DNA of 33,661 bases. Source: an uncultured Prochlorococcus sp. GTDB lineage: Bacteria > Cyanobacteriota > Cyanobacteriia > PCC-6307 > Cyanobiaceae. The stretch spans positions 1-33,661 of the forward strand of contig CACBFH010000010.1 in assembly GCA_902538515.1 (NCBI GenBank), in the 5' to 3' direction. How positions within the stretch are numbered: position 1 is the stretch's first letter; the number at the start of each line of letters is the position of its first letter. Shown piece after piece: positions 6,502-19,169 of this stretch. The notes under the pieces are model-generated. The model saw only the letters and a list, made by a program, of their open reading frames with translations. It was not told the DNA's origin and searched no databases. The position numbers and the translations under genes were made by a program.

Positions 6502-6601
6502 TATAATAAATTTTATGTTTAGTTATTAATAATATAGCTTATAAAATCAATCTCAGTAATAATAAATACCGCTTTTAAAAAAAAATAAATAACTATATTT
6601 T

Positions 6602-6617
6602 GAAAATTATTATCATT
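6602..6617 (-). promoter_or_regulatory. Zur/Fur-type operator candidate upstream of the Cys-rich protein
   Basis: Read on the minus strand this is AATGATAATAATTTTC, which differs by one base from the matching part of the znuA/znuC box at 17033-17052. It lies about 100 bases before the ATG of the metallothionein-like gene, with AT-rich -10-like sequences (TATAGT) downstream of it. The assignment rests on similarity alone, and the right half-site is weakened. Confidence 0.4.
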
Positions 6618-12677: not shown

Positions 12678-13751
12678 TTAATTAAATCCCTCTGAAGAAA
12701 GATTAGTACGGACTTTAAATTTCCAAACATTTACTACACCTTTTGCGTTAACTGCTGCGAGTGCACAATCATCAGGTCTCCAGGATATTGCCCCTACTAA
12801 ATCTCCAGCGAATGCAGCCCCAACTGGGTCTCCATTACCGTCTTTTTTTAGGAAACTTGCTACAACAGAACCATCTCTAGATCCGGAAGCTACAAGCATA
12901 CCTTTATTTGAAAAGGCTAGGCTCGAAATAGGTTCTGTATGGTGTAATAGCTCTCCTGGCATAGTTCCCTCTGGACCATCTCCTATAAAACTCCATACTG
13001 TGATTCTTTCACTACCACTAGTTGCCAATAATTTTCCACTTTCATCAAAAGAGAGGTGACTTGGTTTTCCAGGGTATCCTGTCATTTCAGCATCCATTCC
13101 TGTTGATCTTCTCCAAAAATGAACTGAATTGTCTTGACTCCCACAGGCAACTATATCTCCATCAGGACTTAATTCCATTGAAACTAATGATCCTTTCCAC
13201 TCGAGTTTTTGATTCGTTTTATTATTTACTATGTCAAAGAAAGTTACTCTCCCGTAGCAAGCAGTTGCTAGCTCATTTTTATTTGACCATTTTATTGCAC
13301 TCACTGTGCTTGGATGATCATCTGAGATCCATTTTTCATCTCCAATTTCATTAAAAATATATACTTTTTTTGAAGAAGCTACTGCAAGAAATAAACCATC
13401 ATTTGACCACTTAAGATGCTCTACCCAAGCTTTGCCAAGATCGAGAGTTTTAATTAGTTTTCCATCGTGGCAATTATATATTTGAATATTTCCATCTTGG
13501 CCGGAAGTTGCAAAAATTTCTCCTTCTGGATGAATGGACATAGCTAAGAGGCCGCAAGAATGAGTTTTTTCTTTTTTCCAAATAATTTTCCCAGTATCTC
13601 CTTCAAAGCCAAAAATACCTCCAGCTACATCTCCAACAATGAATAACTTTCCTTTAATAGCCCAGCCACAAACTATGGCATAATCGTTAACTTCAGCAGT
13701 CCATCCTTCGTGGAACATACCTCTTGGGCTAAATGATTCTATATCAGGCAT
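12678..13751 (-). CDS. WD40-repeat protein of the zinc cluster
   Basis: 357 residues and about seven WD40-like units, giving a full beta-propeller without other domains. Typical unit ends are EGEIFATSGQDGNIQIYN, GLFLAVASSKKVYIFN, DGDIVACGSQDNSVHFW, GKLLATSGSERITVWSF, MLVASGSRDGSVVASF and CALAAVNAKGVVNVWKF. There is no signal peptide, so it is probably cytoplasmic. WD40 propellers serve as protein-docking platforms. Its start overlaps the end of the COG0523 gene by 13 bases (13739-13751), a strong sign of coupled translation and a shared task, probably in zinc delivery by the GTPase. Which partner it binds is unknown. Confidence 0.88.
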   Translation of the reverse strand: MPDIESFSPRGMFHEGWTAEVNDYAIVCGWAIKGKLFIVGDVAGGIFGFEGDTGKIIWKKEKTHSCGLLAMSIHPEGEIFATSGQDGNIQIYNCHDGKLIKTLDLGKAWVEHLKWSNDGLFLAVASSKKVYIFNEIGDEKWISDDHPSTVSAIKWSNKNELATACYGRVTFFDIVNNKTNQKLEWKGSLVSMELSPDGDIVACGSQDNSVHFWRRSTGMDAEMTGYPGKPSHLSFDESGKLLATSGSERITVWSFIGDGPEGTMPGELLHHTEPISSLAFSNKGMLVASGSRDGSVVASFLKKDGNGDPVGAAFAGDLVGAISWRPDDCALAAVNAKGVVNVWKFKVRTNLSSEGFN

Positions 13752-15094
13752 TTTTCAAAATCTTCTTGCATCTCTTTTTCGTCCAAATTTCTACCTATAA
13801 AAACAAGTTGGTTTCTGCGAGGTTCATTACCCCATTCTTTATCAGGTTGTGCCGTGAATAACATATGTACCCCTTGGAAAACTATTCTCTGTGGGTTTCC
13901 TGAGTAGCTAATGAAACCTTTTGTTCTAAATATATCCACCCCTTTTTCTGAAAGAAGTCTGCCCAACCAAGTATTAAGTTTTTCTGGATCAACATCACCA
14001 AATCGTTCAATTGCAATTGAGGTTACTTCATCATCGTGTTCGTGCTCTGCTTGCCAGAATCTTTCAATATTAAATGAAATCTCTTTTGGATTATTTTTAT
14101 CGATCTTTATGATTTTCATATTGAATTCTTCAGCAGTGTGTTGTGTATATAAACCTATCTTTGATCCCTTTTCGATGTCTAATATGAATGATTTATCTCC
14201 TTTTTCTTCTAATTTAAGATTTATATGTTCTCCAAATGGAATAGTATTTCCAGGTTCTAAACTTTTAGACTTTTCAGCATAAAGTCTTACAGAGGATTCA
14301 GCACCATCTTTAAGTTCTTCTTCGGTTGATCCCTGATTTGTAAAAGCAACTAATGACATTTCAGGATCTGGTCCATCTTCTAAAATTAATTCATATTTTC
14401 CTGGAGCAAGATCGTAAACACCTGTCCATTCAAAAGGATATTCTGGTTCGAGAAATGTTGGTCTTCGTCTGAGAATTTGATCAAGATCAAATGCATTAAG
14501 ATTTAAAACAGTTTCTATTGGTACTTGGGCATTCTCAGCTCGAATAATTCGAGTCATTCGATTCATATCTTTTAATCTCGATTCAAGACTATTTAGAGCA
14601 TCATCTGAAACTAAATCTGTTTTATTAAGCACTAAAACATCAGCAAATGCTACTTGTTCAGAGCTTTCATCGCTTCTTCCTAATTGTTGATCAATATGTG
14701 CAGCATCAACTAAAGTCACAATCCCATCAAGTGTAAATTCAGAACTAATTTCTTCATCCATGAAAAATGTCTGAGCAACAGGACCAGGATCTGCTAAGCC
14801 AGTTGTTTCTACCAATACATAGTCAAACTTATCTCTTCTTTTCATAAGGTTGCCAAGGACTCTTATCAAATCTCCGCGAACGGTACAACAGATGCACCCA
14901 TTTGACATCTCAAATACTTCTTCATCAGCATTAATTACGAGTCCTTGATCTATGCCAACTTCACCATATTCATTCTCAATTACAGCTATTCTTTTACCAT
15001 GCTCTTCACTTAATATTCTATTAAGCAAAGTCGTTTTACCTGAACCTAAGAATCCAGTGAGGATTGTTACTGGAACTTTATCTTTGATACTCAT
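13739..15094 (-). CDS. COG0523/CobW-family GTPase, putative zinc metallochaperone, with extra domain
   Basis: 451 residues. The G-domain (1-210) has Walker A GFLGSGKTT (14-22), the family's metal-binding CxCC as CICC (67-70), Walker B with ETTGLADPGP, and NKTD (157-160). The CobW C-terminal domain is at about 352-451. Between them, at 221-335, lies a domain starting FEWTGVYDLAPGKYELILED, which is related to the two inserts in ZnuA next door and is absent from ordinary COG0523 proteins. HEHDDE (351-356) is a small His/Asp cluster. COG0523 proteins hand Zn or Co to target enzymes using GTP. It lies between znuA and the WD40 gene on the same strand, with a degenerate Zur box 50 bases upstream. 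The target is unknown. Confidence 0.92.
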   Translation of the reverse strand: MSIKDKVPVTILTGFLGSGKTTLLNRILSEEHGKRIAVIENEYGEVGIDQGLVINADEEVFEMSNGCICCTVRGDLIRVLGNLMKRRDKFDYVLVETTGLADPGPVAQTFFMDEEISSEFTLDGIVTLVDAAHIDQQLGRSDESSEQVAFADVLVLNKTDLVSDDALNSLESRLKDMNRMTRIIRAENAQVPIETVLNLNAFDLDQILRRRPTFLEPEYPFEWTGVYDLAPGKYELILEDGPDPEMSLVAFTNQGSTEEELKDGAESSVRLYAEKSKSLEPGNTIPFGEHINLKLEEKGDKSFILDIEKGSKIGLYTQHTAEEFNMKIIKIDKNNPKEISFNIERFWQAEHEHDDEVTSIAIERFGDVDPEKLNTWLGRLLSEKGVDIFRTKGFISYSGNPQRIVFQGVHMLFTAQPDKEWGNEPRRNQLVFIGRNLDEKEMQEDFEKCLI

Positions 15095-15144
15095 CTACCG
15101 ATTTTAACTAAAAAAACAATTAACCTAATAATATTAATAATAAT

Positions 15145-15159
15145 AAATGATAACCGTTT
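15145..15159 (-). promoter_or_regulatory. Degenerate Zur-type box before the COG0523 gene
   Basis: AAATGATAACCGTTT on the plus strand. The left half AAATGAT is identical to the znuA box, while the right half is altered (CCGTTT instead of ATCATTT). It lies about 50 bases upstream of the COG0523 ATG and just after the znuA stop, so the GTPase and WD40 genes could have their own zinc-responsive promoter besides read-through from znuA. Confidence 0.35.
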
Positions 15160-15172
15160 TTATTAGAAAAAT

Positions 15173-17011
15173 TTAATCTGAAAGTTTGTACCATTCAGAC
15201 TCAAGATTAGAGCCAGATTCTTTATCACAGCTTCCACCTAATGAATCAACAATTGTACAAGTGTTGTGAACTGCTACGCTCACAGTATTTCCTTTCATCA
15301 TTAATCCATCGACAAATATTTGATCAGAAGCTAAGGGTACAGAACTTTGCCTACTTAAGTTTTTTAATAACTTAGACGCTGGTATTTGTTCTGGAAATAT
15401 TGCCTTAACATTCTCTTCTTCTAACATACTCAAAGTTGAACTAATGTTTTCAGGCCTTAAGCTTGATGAATCGCCAAGAAAGTCTAGTAAACTAACCGTT
15501 TCAAATCCGAATGCAGCCCCATAATAATCCATAGCTTTGTGTTTTGAGACAAGAACCCTGTCTTGCATAGGTATTGTTGAGACCTGGTCAATAATCCATC
15601 CATTAAGACCGCTGAGTATAGATTCAGTTGAATCAATTCTTTCATTGATGGATTTCCTATCTTTTCTGTTAAAAATAGAGATATCCCTTTTTAAATTCTT
15701 TGAAATTACTTTACTCATTTTTATAATATTGGCTGGATCATGCCATACATGAGGGTCTAAACTTCCATGACCATGGTGGTGGTGGTGATGTCCATCGCCC
15801 TCATCTGGAACTTGAGCGATAGGCTCTACATCATTGTTGGATACATCTTTGAAGAAGTGTTCATCTGCTTCAAATTCAAAAGGCATATGTTCTGTAAAGA
15901 ATGTATATTTACCACTTTTTTTGATTTCTACATTAAATACTGTACTCTCTTTTCCTTGATCAAAATTAAGTGATATTGCTTTTGAACTTGCTAATAAAAT
16001 ATCATTATTAGTTTTGTAAATAGAATCATCAGATTCTAAAAGTCCCTTTGCAAGTTCTTCAGATTCTTCAATATCTCCAGATTTGAGGATAACCATTTTC
16101 ATAGCAGGATCTGCATATTCACCATCGACTTTTGCAAATGACCATTTATATGATCCTTCCTTCAGATCAAAAGTTCCTGCCCACTCGTATCCTTCTGCGC
16201 CATGTTCACTATGGCCTCCCATATCAGGTTCTTGGGCAACTGGTTCGATATCATTTTTAGCTAGATCTTTGAAAAAGTGTTCATCTGCTTCAAATTCAAA
16301 AGGCATATGTTCTGTAAAGAAAGCATACTTACCATCTTTTTTGATTTCTACATTAAATTCCGTGATATCTTTCTTTTGATCAAAATTTAAAACGAAGGCT
16401 TTGTCACTTGCAGAAAGAATACCATTATTGCTTTTTTCAATATTTTGATCAGATCCCAATAGATCTTCTGCTAACTCTTCAGATAATTCAATGTCATCTG
16501 ATTCAAGAATGACCATTTTCATAGCAGGATCTGCATATTCACCATCGACTTTTGCAAATGACCATTTATAATTTCCTGCTGAAAGTTCGAAAAGTCCAGC
16601 CCATTCAAAAGCTCCTCCTTCTTCACTAGATGGATTCTCAACTTCGATGGCACTTACACCTACAACAACAGTATTTGGCTTTTCTTCCCAGTTTTTCATA
16701 GTGGGAGTCATTTCTTTACCTAGAGTGAAAACTTTATCTGCGTTATTTAGCAATTGAGCTTGTCTTGGATTAATCTTGAGATCATGAACATCTTGTTTTC
16801 TATCAACTAAGCATGTAACTTCGTCAGAAGGTAATGCAATTGATTGAACTAAATCACAAACTAGTGGTTCTACAGCAACATATGATTTTCCTTTAGCCAT
16901 TACATCATGCGCAAAACCAGATAGTATTATGGTTCCTGCGATTACGGTATTTTTGAACATTGGCTTTGATGGTGTTTTTTTATTTAATAAAACTTTTTGA
17001 AAAATTGACAT
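15173..17011 (-). CDS. znuA: Zinc ABC transporter substrate-binding protein ZnuA with two inserted repeat domains
   Basis: 612 residues, about twice the usual size. A signal peptide (hydrophobic core about 21-34, cleavage near DVMA-KG; a start at Met18, 16960, would also work) leads into the ZnuA N-lobe with His76 in DVHD. The chain is then interrupted by two tandem copies of a 140-residue unit (about 135-274 and 275-414), each beginning EWAG and containing YADPAMKMVIL and FTEHMPFEFEADEHFFKD. A His loop (408-415), PHVWHDP (His421, His424) and the C-lobe with His491 in SKHKAMDYYG follow. The zinc ligands of the family are present, so it should capture Zn in the periplasm for ZnuB/ZnuC. A Zur-type box sits 21 bases before its ATG. 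Confidence 0.93.
   Translation of the reverse strand: MSIFQKVLLNKKTPSKPMFKNTVIAGTIILSGFAHDVMAKGKSYVAVEPLVCDLVQSIALPSDEVTCLVDRKQDVHDLKINPRQAQLLNNADKVFTLGKEMTPTMKNWEEKPNTVVVGVSAIEVENPSSEEGGAFEWAGLFELSAGNYKWSFAKVDGEYADPAMKMVILESDDIELSEELAEDLLGSDQNIEKSNNGILSASDKAFVLNFDQKKDITEFNVEIKKDGKYAFFTEHMPFEFEADEHFFKDLAKNDIEPVAQEPDMGGHSEHGAEGYEWAGTFDLKEGSYKWSFAKVDGEYADPAMKMVILKSGDIEESEELAKGLLESDDSIYKTNNDILLASSKAISLNFDQGKESTVFNVEIKKSGKYTFFTEHMPFEFEADEHFFKDVSNNDVEPIAQVPDEGDGHHHHHHGHGSLDPHVWHDPANIIKMSKVISKNLKRDISIFNRKDRKSINERIDSTESILSGLNGWIIDQVSTIPMQDRVLVSKHKAMDYYGAAFGFETVSLLDFLGDSSSLRPENISSTLSMLEEENVKAIFPEQIPASKLLKNLSRQSSVPLASDQIFVDGLMMKGNTVSVAVHNTCTIVDSLGGSCDKESGSNLESEWYKLSD
15770..16609 (-). repeat. 420-bp in-frame tandem duplication inside znuA
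   Basis: Copy 1 is 16190-16609 and copy 2 is 15770-16189, exactly 420 bases (140 codons) each. Two patches are identical in DNA: 59 bases at 16092-16150 and 16512-16570, and 47 bases at 15855-15901 and 16275-16321. Between them the copies differ more freely. This suggests a recent duplication, gene conversion, or strong constraint on these blocks. Confidence 0.9.
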
Positions 17012-17032: not shown

Positions 17033-17052
17033 AAAATGATAATCATTTTCAT
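17033..17052. promoter_or_regulatory. Zur box in the znuA-znuC divergent promoter
   Basis: AAAATGATAATCATTTTCAT, with a perfect AAATGAT-A-ATCATTT 7-1-7 palindrome as known for Zur/Fur family operators. It is centred 32 bases from the znuA ATG and about 105 bases from the znuC ATG. On the plus strand TAGTAT follows at the distance of a -10 box, so one site could block both divergent promoters when zinc is sufficient. Confidence 0.85.
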
Positions 17053-17147: not shown

Positions 17148-17918
17148 ATGGCCACTTTAGTCGCTGAAAATTTAACCTATTCATATACTAAAAAAAGTAA
17201 GCCAGCTTTAAATAAGGTATCGGTTGAGATCAAACCTGGAACTCTAACAGCGCTAGTTGGTCCAAATGGTGCTGGTAAATCTACTTTATTAAAAATATTG
17301 CAAGGACAGAATGCTCCAGACAAAGGCGAAATAAAAATTGATGGTGAGAATTTACATAGATCTAGATCCCTTGTTGCTCTTATGCCCCAAAGAAGTTCAA
17401 TGAATTGGAAGTTTCCAATTACAGTAGAAAAATTAGTAGCTCTCGGACAAATAAAGTATTCAAGATCTAGAAGTAATACACCTTTTCAAATAAAAACTCT
17501 TCTCGCATATCCTAATGCTTGGATTAATAAATGTTGCGAATTAGAGGCGACAATGCAAAGGGTTGGCATTGCTAATTTAGCTAATAGAAGACTAGATTCT
17601 CTTTCAGGAGGACAACAGCAAAGAGCTTTATTGGCAAAGACTCTTATGTCCCCTGCAAAAATCTTTCTTCTTGATGAACCTTGTGCGGCTTTGGATCCTC
17701 CTGCAAAAGAGGATTTTCTAAAAATTGTTCGTCAACTTGCGGATATAGGTCTTTCTTTGGTTGTAAGCAGCCATGATTGGGGTGAGTCTCTTAATAACTA
17801 CGATCAAGTAATAGTTCTTGATAAAACTGTTTTAGCAGTTGGTAGACCTGATTCAATAAAAGATAAATTATATGATATCAACATAAACGCTCTAAATAAA
17901 AATAATTCCCTTAATTAG
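17148..17918 (+). CDS. znuC: Zinc ABC transporter ATP-binding protein ZnuC
   Basis: 256 residues. Walker A GPNGAGKST (38-46), Q-loop in LMPQRSSMNWKFP, signature LSGGQQQR (152-159), Walker B IFLLDEP (172-178), D-loop AALD and switch His in VVSSHDWGES place it in the Mn/Zn (ABC-3) ATPase group. A Cys pair (CC, 129-130) lies in a slightly long segment between Q-loop and signature. It starts about 95 bases after the Zur box, diverging from znuA. ZnuB, its membrane partner, lies 465 bases on in the same direction, with the zur gene between them on the other strand. Confidence 0.92.
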   Translation: MATLVAENLTYSYTKKSKPALNKVSVEIKPGTLTALVGPNGAGKSTLLKILQGQNAPDKGEIKIDGENLHRSRSLVALMPQRSSMNWKFPITVEKLVALGQIKYSRSRSNTPFQIKTLLAYPNAWINKCCELEATMQRVGIANLANRRLDSLSGGQQQRALLAKTLMSPAKIFLLDEPCAALDPPAKEDFLKIVRQLADIGLSLVVSSHDWGESLNNYDQVIVLDKTVLAVGRPDSIKDKLYDININALNKNNSLN

Positions 17919-17931
17919 AAAATGTTATTAC

Positions 17932-18366
17932 TTAATTTTGAGCTTGATAACAGTTTTGGCAAAGTCCGAAATATTCGAGTGTATGAAACAAAAGTTGAAA
18001 CTTTTTGGGATTTTTTTTAGGAGTATGAATATCTTTAACAGGACAACCTTCCATTTTCGAAGTCTCTCCGCATTGAACGCAGGTCAAATGATGAATATCT
18101 CTATCAACTGGAGTATACAGAACTTCTCCATTAGGGAGATGTCTAGAACGAATTAAGCCATGTTTTATCAAGATTTGCAGGTTTCTATAAACAGTTGTCA
18201 AACCCATAGATTTGCCTTTATCCAAAAGCTGCCTATGCAACTCTTGTCCGCTCAATTCATCATCACAATTATTCAATTCTTCAAGAAGTTGTTCTTGTCT
18301 TTTGGTAATGTCAGACTTAGTTACCATTTTTTTCGAGATCTTTTTTTGGCCCGCATTTCTGATCAT
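17932..18366 (-). CDS. zur: Fur-family repressor, probably Zur
   Basis: 144 residues from the first ATG (18366); a start at Met14 (18327) would give 131 residues, nearer the typical Fur length. The winged helix is at about 22-85, with recognition segment GLTTVYRNLQIL. The metal sites are visible: HHLTCVQCGE (His92, His93, Cys96, Cys99) and CQNC (136-139) form the structural zinc site, and His128 and Glu131 lie between. The name Zur rather than Fur or PerR rests on its place between znuC and znuB and on the matching operators nearby. It ends 13 bases from the znuC stop and starts 17 bases from the znuB start, all on the opposite strand. Confidence 0.88.
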   Translation of the reverse strand: MIRNAGQKKISKKMVTKSDITKRQEQLLEELNNCDDELSGQELHRQLLDKGKSMGLTTVYRNLQILIKHGLIRSRHLPNGEVLYTPVDRDIHHLTCVQCGETSKMEGCPVKDIHTPKKNPKKFQLLFHTLEYFGLCQNCYQAQN

Positions 18367-18383
18367 ACCGAATCATTTGAATA

Positions 18384-19169
18384 ATGTCTTTTATAAATAA
18401 CAACTGGTGGCTTGTTCCATTAATAATAACTATATTCTCAGGGATCTTATGTCCAGCAATGGGAACTGTACTTATTACTCATAAGAGATTATTACAAGTT
18501 AATTTAATCTCTCATTGTGTATTACCTGGACTTGCTCTCGCATTAGCGCTTGGAATTCACCCCTCAATTGGTGGTGTTATAAGTGGTCTTTTAGGCTCAG
18601 TAATCGTGGAAAGTTTAACTAATAGAAAAAGTGAAAATTATGAAGCAGTTATGAATACTATTCTTGCTGGAATGCTTGGATTTGGAGTCCTTATTATTCC
18701 TCTACTCGGAATAAGGATTGATTTGGAGGCAGTATTATTTGGCGATTTGTTAACAGCAAATTTTGGGGATTTACTTAGAACAATAATTGCTTTTTTAGTA
18801 TTTATACTTTTGATAACTTTTGGATATGAAAAGGTTGTTTATGTTGGATTAGATCCAGAAGGTGCATCTGCAAGTGGTATAAACGTTTCTTTATTAAATC
18901 TTGCTTTGAGTTTTACGACAGCATTAGTAATTGTTAGTTCAATGTCAGCAGTGGGAGTAATTCTCGTAATTGCTCTTCTCTCTACCCCAACTCTGTTAGG
19001 GCTAAATAAGGCTCAGAGTTTAAGAATTGCAATGATGAGGTCTTCATTTTTTGGATTATGCATCTCACTCCTGGGCTTTATTCTCTCATTAGTCTTTAAT
19101 CTGTCGCCTGGGCCTGCAATTAGCGTTATTTGTGTTGTATCTCTTTTGATTCCTAAACTTCGCAAATAA
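18384..19169 (+). CDS. znuB: Zinc ABC transporter permease ZnuB
   Basis: 261 residues with seven or eight hydrophobic helices, starting WLVPLIITIFSGILCPAMGT. It belongs to the ABC-3 family: LLQVNLISHCVLPGLALALA, GVILVIALLSTPTLLGL and the C-terminal SPGPAISVICVVSLLIPKL are characteristic. The permease carries zinc released by ZnuA across the plasma membrane, driven by ZnuC. There are only 17 bases between its ATG and the zur ATG, so its own promoter would have to lie inside zur. The alternative is that it is read from the znuC promoter through antisense zur. Confidence 0.93.
   Translation: MSFINNNWWLVPLIITIFSGILCPAMGTVLITHKRLLQVNLISHCVLPGLALALALGIHPSIGGVISGLLGSVIVESLTNRKSENYEAVMNTILAGMLGFGVLIIPLLGIRIDLEAVLFGDLLTANFGDLLRTIIAFLVFILLITFGYEKVVYVGLDPEGASASGINVSLLNLALSFTTALVIVSSMSAVGVILVIALLSTPTLLGLNKAQSLRIAMMRSSFFGLCISLLGFILSLVFNLSPGPAISVICVVSLLIPKLRK

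Follow-up and report, generated by a model that had tools for sequence, protein, structure and literature searches.

A shared, predicted beta-sandwich domain in a zinc receptor and a COG0523 GTPase of Prochlorococcus, a candidate folded counterpart of histidine-rich loops

Introduction

Why should two adjacent zinc genes, whose products are predicted to work on opposite sides of a membrane, share an extra domain? The question is raised by a stretch of 33,661 nucleotides from an uncultured Prochlorococcus sp. (assembly GCA_902538515.1, contig CACBFH010000010.1, positions 1 to 33,661), referred to here as the window. Within it, a ZnuA protein, the substrate-binding protein of a zinc ABC transporter, carries two copies of the domain and the neighbouring COG0523 (CobW-type G3E) GTPase carries one. 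A first-pass annotation had aligned the three segments by eye and proposed a zinc-binding or docking module linking uptake to intracellular delivery.

Histidine-rich loops are thought to capture metal beside the metal-using site. How they act in zinc receptors and in COG0523 chaperones has, to our knowledge, not been settled, in part because disordered strings of this kind are difficult to study. The domain described here is probably a folded metal-capturing module, the counterpart of the histidine-rich loops of ZnuA and COG0523 proteins, as judged from its sequence relationships and its position in both hosts.

The three copies are homologous

The ZnuA gene (15173..17011, minus strand; 612 amino acids) encodes domain copy 1 at about residues 130-262 (16226..16624, minus strand) and copy 2 at about residues 269-402 (15806..16207, minus strand). 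The COG0523 gene (13739..15094, minus strand; 451 amino acids) encodes a single copy at about residues 216-346 (14057..14449, minus strand), between the G domain and the CobW_C domain. These extents are those of matches to a profile, A1, which includes all three window copies themselves and finds them at 6e-73, 3e-74 and 8e-50, respectively. The limits drawn by eye (ZnuA 135-261 and 275-401; COG0523 221-335) were in the right place and slightly shorter.

The two ZnuA copies are 73% identical to each other over 132 residues. Across the two protein families, BLAST aligns the COG0523 segment with copy 2 at E 9e-6 (30% identity) and with copy 1 at E 8e-5 (28%). These scores lie 10.1 and 8.9 standard deviations above those of shuffled sequences, and none of 2000 shuffles reached the real score in either case. 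When a profile was made from 41 COG0523 copies and kept free of ZnuA sequences, it found copy 1 at 5e-16 and copy 2 at 2e-14, and also all 56 known domain-carrying open reading frames (ORFs) outside COG0523 (not all distinct), whereas 20,000 shuffled ORFs gave it nothing at E<=10. BLAST, the shuffles and the COG0523-only profile show the three segments to be homologous and bear out the shared domain first proposed, including the significant similarity between its CobW and ZnuA versions.

Insertion at histidine-rich loops

In the window COG0523 protein the domain sits between FLEPE and EHEHDDEV, and alignment with domain-less relatives reveals a clean insertion. The comparison covered 25 domain-less proteins from 20 Cyanobiaceae-type genomes. 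The three closest (L162-L164), whose identity in the matched part of the G domain is 57-60%, have no gap at this site and continue with a brief HxHEHD motif, and the 22 more distant paralogues have long His-rich strings at the junction of the G and CobW_C domains. The HEHDD motif at this site in the window protein (14030..14044, minus strand) directly follows the inserted domain and aligns with HxHEHD of the domain-less relatives; its H351 and H353 are invariant across 35 COG0523 sequences.

In ZnuA alignments the start of the domain coincides with that of the His-rich loop, whose polyhistidine tract, HHHHHHGH, placed in the loop by alignment, directly follows copy 2 (15767..15790, minus strand). 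Prochlorococcus ZnuAs without the domain (L098 and L109, 3159-4271) have a DDHDDHDDH-type His/Asp-rich string in its place; their COG0523 neighbour keeps the domain and has a G domain 97% identical to that of the window. Outside COG0523, the 40 flanking residues on each side contain 21% His against 2% inside the domain (45 distinct copies, largely picocyanobacterial). Alignments thus locate the insertion point in ZnuA at the His-rich loop and in COG0523 at the polyhistidine linker. Since the domain occupies the place of His-rich strings in related proteins, it probably captures metal.

Residue conservation and polyhistidine variants

A set of 53 copies shows no variation at Glu5, Trp6, Gly8, Asp30, His104, Glu108 and Phe109 (numbered as in ZnuA copy 2). 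The motif scan described below used motifs holding some of these residues, and a recount was therefore made on 60 distinct copies that profile or tblastn searches had detected in genomes selected without the motifs (29 of them from the family of the window; the count precedes the Verrucomicrobiota set). It gave Glu5 in 60/60, Asp30 in 59/60, His104 in 60/60 and Glu108 in 60/60. Copy 1 carries all four residues (Glu in FEWAG, Asp in YADPAM, His and Glu in FTEHMPFEF), as does copy 2, and the COG0523 copy carries them in FEWTG, GPDPEM and YTQHTAEEF.

Conservation holds among copies down to 19% identity with the window copy. Such near-absolute retention of Glu, Trp, Gly, Asp, His, Glu and Phe makes it highly improbable that the domain is a spacer or folding insert with no metal function, tolerated in flexible loops, even though it does sit in a loop or linker of its host and Prochlorococcus-type ZnuAs carry zero, one or two copies. 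Two ZnuA copies in one further genome (G223) span a run of N and are a likely assembly artefact.

A second pattern concerns 134 distinct COG0523 regions. Glu, Asp, His and Glu are all kept in 114, whose linkers each contain fewer than 12 His; among the 20 that have lost one or more of the four, 19 contain at least 12. In 18 of these 19 polyhistidine variants a His-rich loop replaces the Asp loop and the FTxH-EF motif is altered. The Verrucomicrobiota proteins L216-L233 illustrate the change, with a long His-rich string, often with Cys, as the Asp loop, and an altered FTxH-EF motif. The position of the domain at His-rich loops, its four near-invariant potential ligands and their loss where polyhistidine is gained make zinc binding the best inference for its role, so that this half of the first proposal (a zinc-binding or docking module) finds sequence-based support.

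Predicted fold and absence from family databases

AlphaFold2 predicts ZnuA copy 2, modelled with 47 aligned copies, as a beta-sandwich (predicted local distance difference test score, pLDDT, 91; predicted template modelling score, pTM, 0.85). It has strands at residues 6-12, 15-22 and 32-39, a helix at 43-55, further strands at 59-62, 67-69, 74-78, 85-92 and 96-102, and a short helix at 106-109. Judged by the strand order, one end of the sandwich would hold Glu5, Asp30 and His104. A full-length COG0523 model, for which the alignment held 35 proteins, all of them COG0523, reached pLDDT 82 and pTM 0.66. Its insert has strands at 223-229, 232-238 and 245-251, a helix at 258-272 and strands at 277-279, 290-294, 301-307 and 311-317. 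The order of elements is the same as in copy 2 save for one short strand. The remainder of the model resembles YjiA (1nij; Z 17.2, root-mean-square deviation, rmsd, 15.9, 262 residues aligned).

A Foldseek search with the domain alone had no match as good as E 1e-3; it ranked influenza haemagglutinin chains highest, with E values of 0.06 and above, and these were taken as chance. The best match in a second look was 1o6u, the C-terminal part of supernatant protein factor (a GOLD domain; Z 4.4, rmsd 3.4, 86 residues aligned), and CBM35 was matched at Z 3.6. These scores are too weak, and we therefore assign no superfamily. Among the nearest folds, several belong to carbohydrate- or ligand-binding sandwiches, and the conserved Trp adjoins the first Glu, as might be expected if the domain bound a small ligand or metal-ligand complex (metallophore, carboxylate or nucleotide) and not bare metal. 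This appears quite unlikely, given the weakness of even the best fold match, the use of one module in two compartments, cytosol and periplasm, that do not share such ligands, and the way in which the domain trades places with polyhistidine.

The domain is without a family in Pfam-A or NCBIfam. When 53 diverse copies were each scanned, Pfam gave no credible match (scattered single matches, best 0.014) and NCBIfam gave at best 3e-4 (two members, against the PRK07906 'hypothetical protein' model), all others being at 0.012 or worse. A PDB sequence search with an eight-row profile (A2) found nothing at E<=5, a PHROGs search with two window copies found nothing below 0.04, and none of 42 pattern matches in viral contigs was confirmed as a relative. 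Identity with ZinT, a first guess from a ZinT-like pattern, was ruled out by profile: PF09223 has no match in the window genome, as against 3 of 14 control genomes that match, and none in the window proteins or in the 53 copies at E 0.1. Searches of open-licence papers turned up no description of this domain. Diatom ZCRP-B, considered as a possible carrier, was dropped, as it is NikA-like (PMC9010474). For COG0523 subfamily 5, a pairing of WD40 and COG0523 genes and its association with znuABC and Zur sites have been published before (PMC2770081).

Host proteins, phylogeny and distribution

The hosts include COG0523 proteins of many phyla, with the domain between G domain and CobW_C (134 distinct regions). 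Domain-bearing ZnuAs occur in picocyanobacteria, SAR324, Verrucomicrobiota, Desulfobacteraceae and haloarchaea. One SAR324 locus (L092, 874-2730 and 4311-5699) repeats the zinc gene set of the window, with a two-copy ZnuA, znuC, znuB and a one-copy COG0523 gene in one run and a Fur-like gene beside it. Stand-alone haloarchaeal proteins (Natrinema, Halomontanus, Halosolutus) have a lipobox-like Cys and a His-rich tail; in one haloarchaeal urease cluster (L115, 4875-5426) such a lipoprotein gene lies directly after ureF. The domain is also found in a multi-span Alicyclobacillus membrane protein, flanked by His clusters on both sides, whose gene lies near metal-sensor and cation-transporter genes. 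Membership of this protein in the NicO/RcnA group was considered and has no Pfam or NCBIfam support (Mntp at 0.0065, below cut-off).

A link specific to the ZnuA-COG0523 pair, as first suggested, is not what these genomes show. In 20 genomes examined whole, picked from motif-scan matches, the COG0523 copy is the sole copy in 16 and the ZnuA copy in one, and two haloarchaeal loci (L118 and L194) have a domain-bearing ZnuA beside COG0523-like GTPases that lack the domain. Nor is the domain strictly limited to zinc-linked genes: one stand-alone copy belongs to a urease cluster, the two others have no obvious metal neighbour and one copy is in the membrane protein, which is unassigned. ZnuA or ZnuB is present in 16 of 35 other 10-kb loci, a count made with no matched control.

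A docking or oligomerisation module, attaching ZnuA to its permease or an envelope partner and COG0523 to a WD40 partner or client, with the conserved residues stabilising fold or interface, would account for the weak resemblance to GOLD and CBM35 domains. It would also fit a tight gene pairing: a WD40 gene lies directly downstream of the COG0523 gene in 47/52 testable loci outside picocyanobacteria, many of them in Poribacteria, again counted with no matched control. Domain-less COG0523 proteins (L162 and L163) are, however, paired in the same way, so the domain does not explain the pairing. Stand-alone forms and ZnuAs with 0, 1 or 2 copies speak against a fixed partner, and replacement by polyhistidine better fits metal; we consider such docking unlikely. 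Direct docking of ZnuA to COG0523, the other half of the first proposal, is unlikely on topological grounds, because the former is probably periplasmic and the latter cytosolic. Across many phyla the WD40 propeller gene overlaps or abuts the COG0523 gene. Fused COG0523-WD40 ORFs (L037, 4305-6260; L164, 1501-2541), in which the end of CobW_C is missing, may represent real fusion, decay or assembly artefact and were not used.

In a tree of 66 copies, which has few columns and many open forks and in which the stand-alone protein L192 is mislabelled ZNUA, ZnuA-type and stand-alone copies cluster with support of 93/88, short of the strict mark. Host labels change four times, as compared with 13.3 changes after shuffling. 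One common origin of the ZnuA-type copies is neither shown nor clearly rejected (approximately unbiased test, p-AU 0.054). The copies follow host protein and not organism, which argues against a recent swap inside the window operon; the window pair would seem to have occurred together for a long time.

Across 84,980 species genomes, a motif-based scan gave at least 560 confirmed stretches among the 590 matches listed, and 80 loci were kept, including Poribacteria, Acidobacteria, Chloroflexi and Rubrobacter. Plasmid records (11) add haloarchaea, Pantoea, Paraburkholderia and Alicyclobacillus; the Haloarcula halophila record NZ_CP119561.1 (H22) has a second domain match elsewhere. Where annotation of carriers was seen, they are called GTP-binding protein, metal ABC binding protein or hypothetical protein. 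Phylum samples, each named after its centre genome and all but Cyanobacteriota including at least one known-positive centre, contain matches in 31/386 genomes of Cyanobacteriota (three-row profile; probably a lower bound), 2/299 of Pseudomonadota, 19/251 of Chloroflexota, 1/247 of Thermodesulfobacteriota (the phylum of L070, the sole positive being the known-positive centre genome), 6/246 of Actinomycetota, 16/247 of Acidobacteriota and 21/240 of Verrucomicrobiota. The domain is confined neither to the window gene pair nor to its lineage. With any copy present in 0.4 to 9% of genomes across these seven samples, the statement that ZnuA and COG0523 proteins normally lack it was a fair one.

The zinc gene cluster of the window

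The source genome is a draft of 1.15 Mb in 50 contigs and is 74% complete. Among the matches listed, the named records nearest the window over the COG0523 G domain are from Prochlorococcus and marine Synechococcaceae (96-98% identity). The window ZnuA is a clear family member (PF01297 at 8e-39, 134 bits against a cut-off of 29), with a signal-peptide-like N-terminal stretch, three core His positions in common with ten other ZnuAs in the alignment, and adjoining znuC and znuB genes. The window COG0523 protein likewise has a PF02492 G domain (2e-61) with the CICC motif, and CobW_C (PF07683, 4e-25); the CICC, P-loop, ETTG and NKxD columns are invariant across 35 COG0523 sequences.

On one side, the end of the COG0523 gene overlaps a WD40 beta-propeller gene (12678..13751, minus strand; PF00400, 9e-28) by 13 bases. 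On the other side of znuA lie genes for a ZnuC-like ABC ATPase (17148..17918, plus strand; PF00005, 2e-31), a Fur-family regulator, probably Zur (17932..18366, minus strand; PF01475, 2.5e-19), and a ZnuB-like ABC-3 permease (18384..19169, plus strand; PF00950, 3e-43).

Between znuA and znuC is a Zur-box-like palindrome, TGATAATCATTTTCA (17037..17051), with one mismatch to what we take to be the cyanobacterial Zur consensus. When as many as three mismatches are allowed, the window holds 19 occurrences of the palindrome where 11.5 would be expected, but just two sites have one mismatch, the second being TGAAAATTATTATCA (window 6601-6615). In each of the 36 testable picocyanobacterial locus entries, which include repeats of the window genome, the best Zur-like match ahead of znuA has 1-3 mismatches; in both Desulfobacteraceae entries the best match has four mismatches.

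A proposed role in metal capture

We propose that the domain, a mobile beta-sandwich of about 120 residues, captures metal, most likely Zn(II). Its ligands would be the Asp of the DP motif, the His of FTxH and the second Glu, that of xEF, with or without the first Glu, that of EW. In ZnuA it would be held by the His-rich loop at the binding-site mouth, catch scarce periplasmic zinc and hand it to the core site. In COG0523, where it replaces the polyhistidine linker from the G domain to CobW_C, the same capture and hand-over would take place in the cytosol. We infer metal binding, the identity of the metal, ligand geometry and hand-over from the homology, predicted fold, insertion point, conservation and polyhistidine replacement described above. 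The gene context also favours the proposal, with ZnuABC, a Zur-like gene and a Zur-like box in the window and ZnuA or ZnuB in 16 of the 35 other loci.

Several observations weigh against this proposal. The 19 polyhistidine variants are all from Verrucomicrobiota, mostly from one clade, and so represent about two independent events and not 19, and the Fisher p for the association is inflated; moreover, alignment of their changed parts is uncertain. Glu5 is retained in 17 of the 19 and may therefore be structural, and one protein (L161) lost Asp30 alone and gained no His. The closest three domain-less COG0523 proteins have the short His motif and no long string, and in COG0523 the flanks contain only 1% His before the domain and 6% after it, with 2% inside (99 copies). 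ZnuA and ZnuB are absent from 19 of the 35 10-kb loci. The Natrinema stand-alone copy lies beside ureDEFG (urease, a nickel enzyme), which would point to nickel or to no metal preference, and the Halomontanus and Halosolutus copies have no obvious metal neighbour. Finally, the nearest folds are weak matches and many are ligand-binding sandwiches, so that a non-metal ligand is possible.

ZnuA, with its visible signal peptide, is probably exported, whereas the COG0523 protein shows none and is probably cytosolic. That one domain serves on both sides of the membrane in adjacent zinc genes is supported by the homology and the gene cluster, as first claimed, and shared chemistry on the two sides is the tenable form of the uptake-delivery idea. 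More tentatively, a single domain family might act as a general folded zinc-relay module in transporter receptors, GTP-dependent metallochaperones, stand-alone lipoproteins and at least one membrane protein, in bacteria and haloarchaea and on both membrane sides. In evolution it would be interchangeable with polyhistidine, its Asp/His/Glu site passing metal to the tethered active site.

With a compact domain in place of His strings, there is a site amenable to structure determination, to mutation residue by residue and to measurement. With at least 560 confirmed stretches, hundreds of proteins gain a concrete, testable part, among them proteins of Prochlorococcus, an organism known for life at very low zinc.

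Comparison with known systems

The domain shares its position in ZnuA with the His-rich loop, and differs from it in being folded with few His inside; the window ZnuA also keeps a His tract. ZinT is a lipocalin-like barrel. The window domain has no ZinT profile match, lies inside the His-rich loop, whereas the ZinT-like domain of AdcA is C-terminal, and occurs in cytosolic COG0523 as well. The AdcA domain is nevertheless alike in being an extra domain on a ZnuA-type protein that aids zinc recruitment alongside a His-rich loop (PMC7858048). AdcA tolerated the loss of one of the two, ZinT-like domain or His-rich loop, and a double loss impaired growth and the accumulation of zinc when zinc was restricted (PMC7858048).

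The COG0523 polyhistidine linker (HxHxHxH; Haas et al. 2009, PMC2770081) lies at the same junction of G domain and CobW_C; in the window protein a folded domain replaces the string and the short HEHDD stays. COG0523 subfamily 5, which includes most eukaryotic homologues, has WD40 gene neighbours, znuABC and predicted Zur sites (Haas et al. 2009, PMC2770081). The window protein is likened to this subfamily by gene neighbourhood, having WD40 and znuABC neighbours and a Zur-like box. It differs in its inserted domain, which goes unmentioned in the passages of PMC2770081 that describe the subfamily and which the closest domain-less relatives do not have. AztD, a periplasmic zinc chaperone, is also a beta-propeller tied to ZnuA-type and CobW genes (PMC6689063). 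The likeness is one of description, and the window propeller differs in showing no signal peptide.

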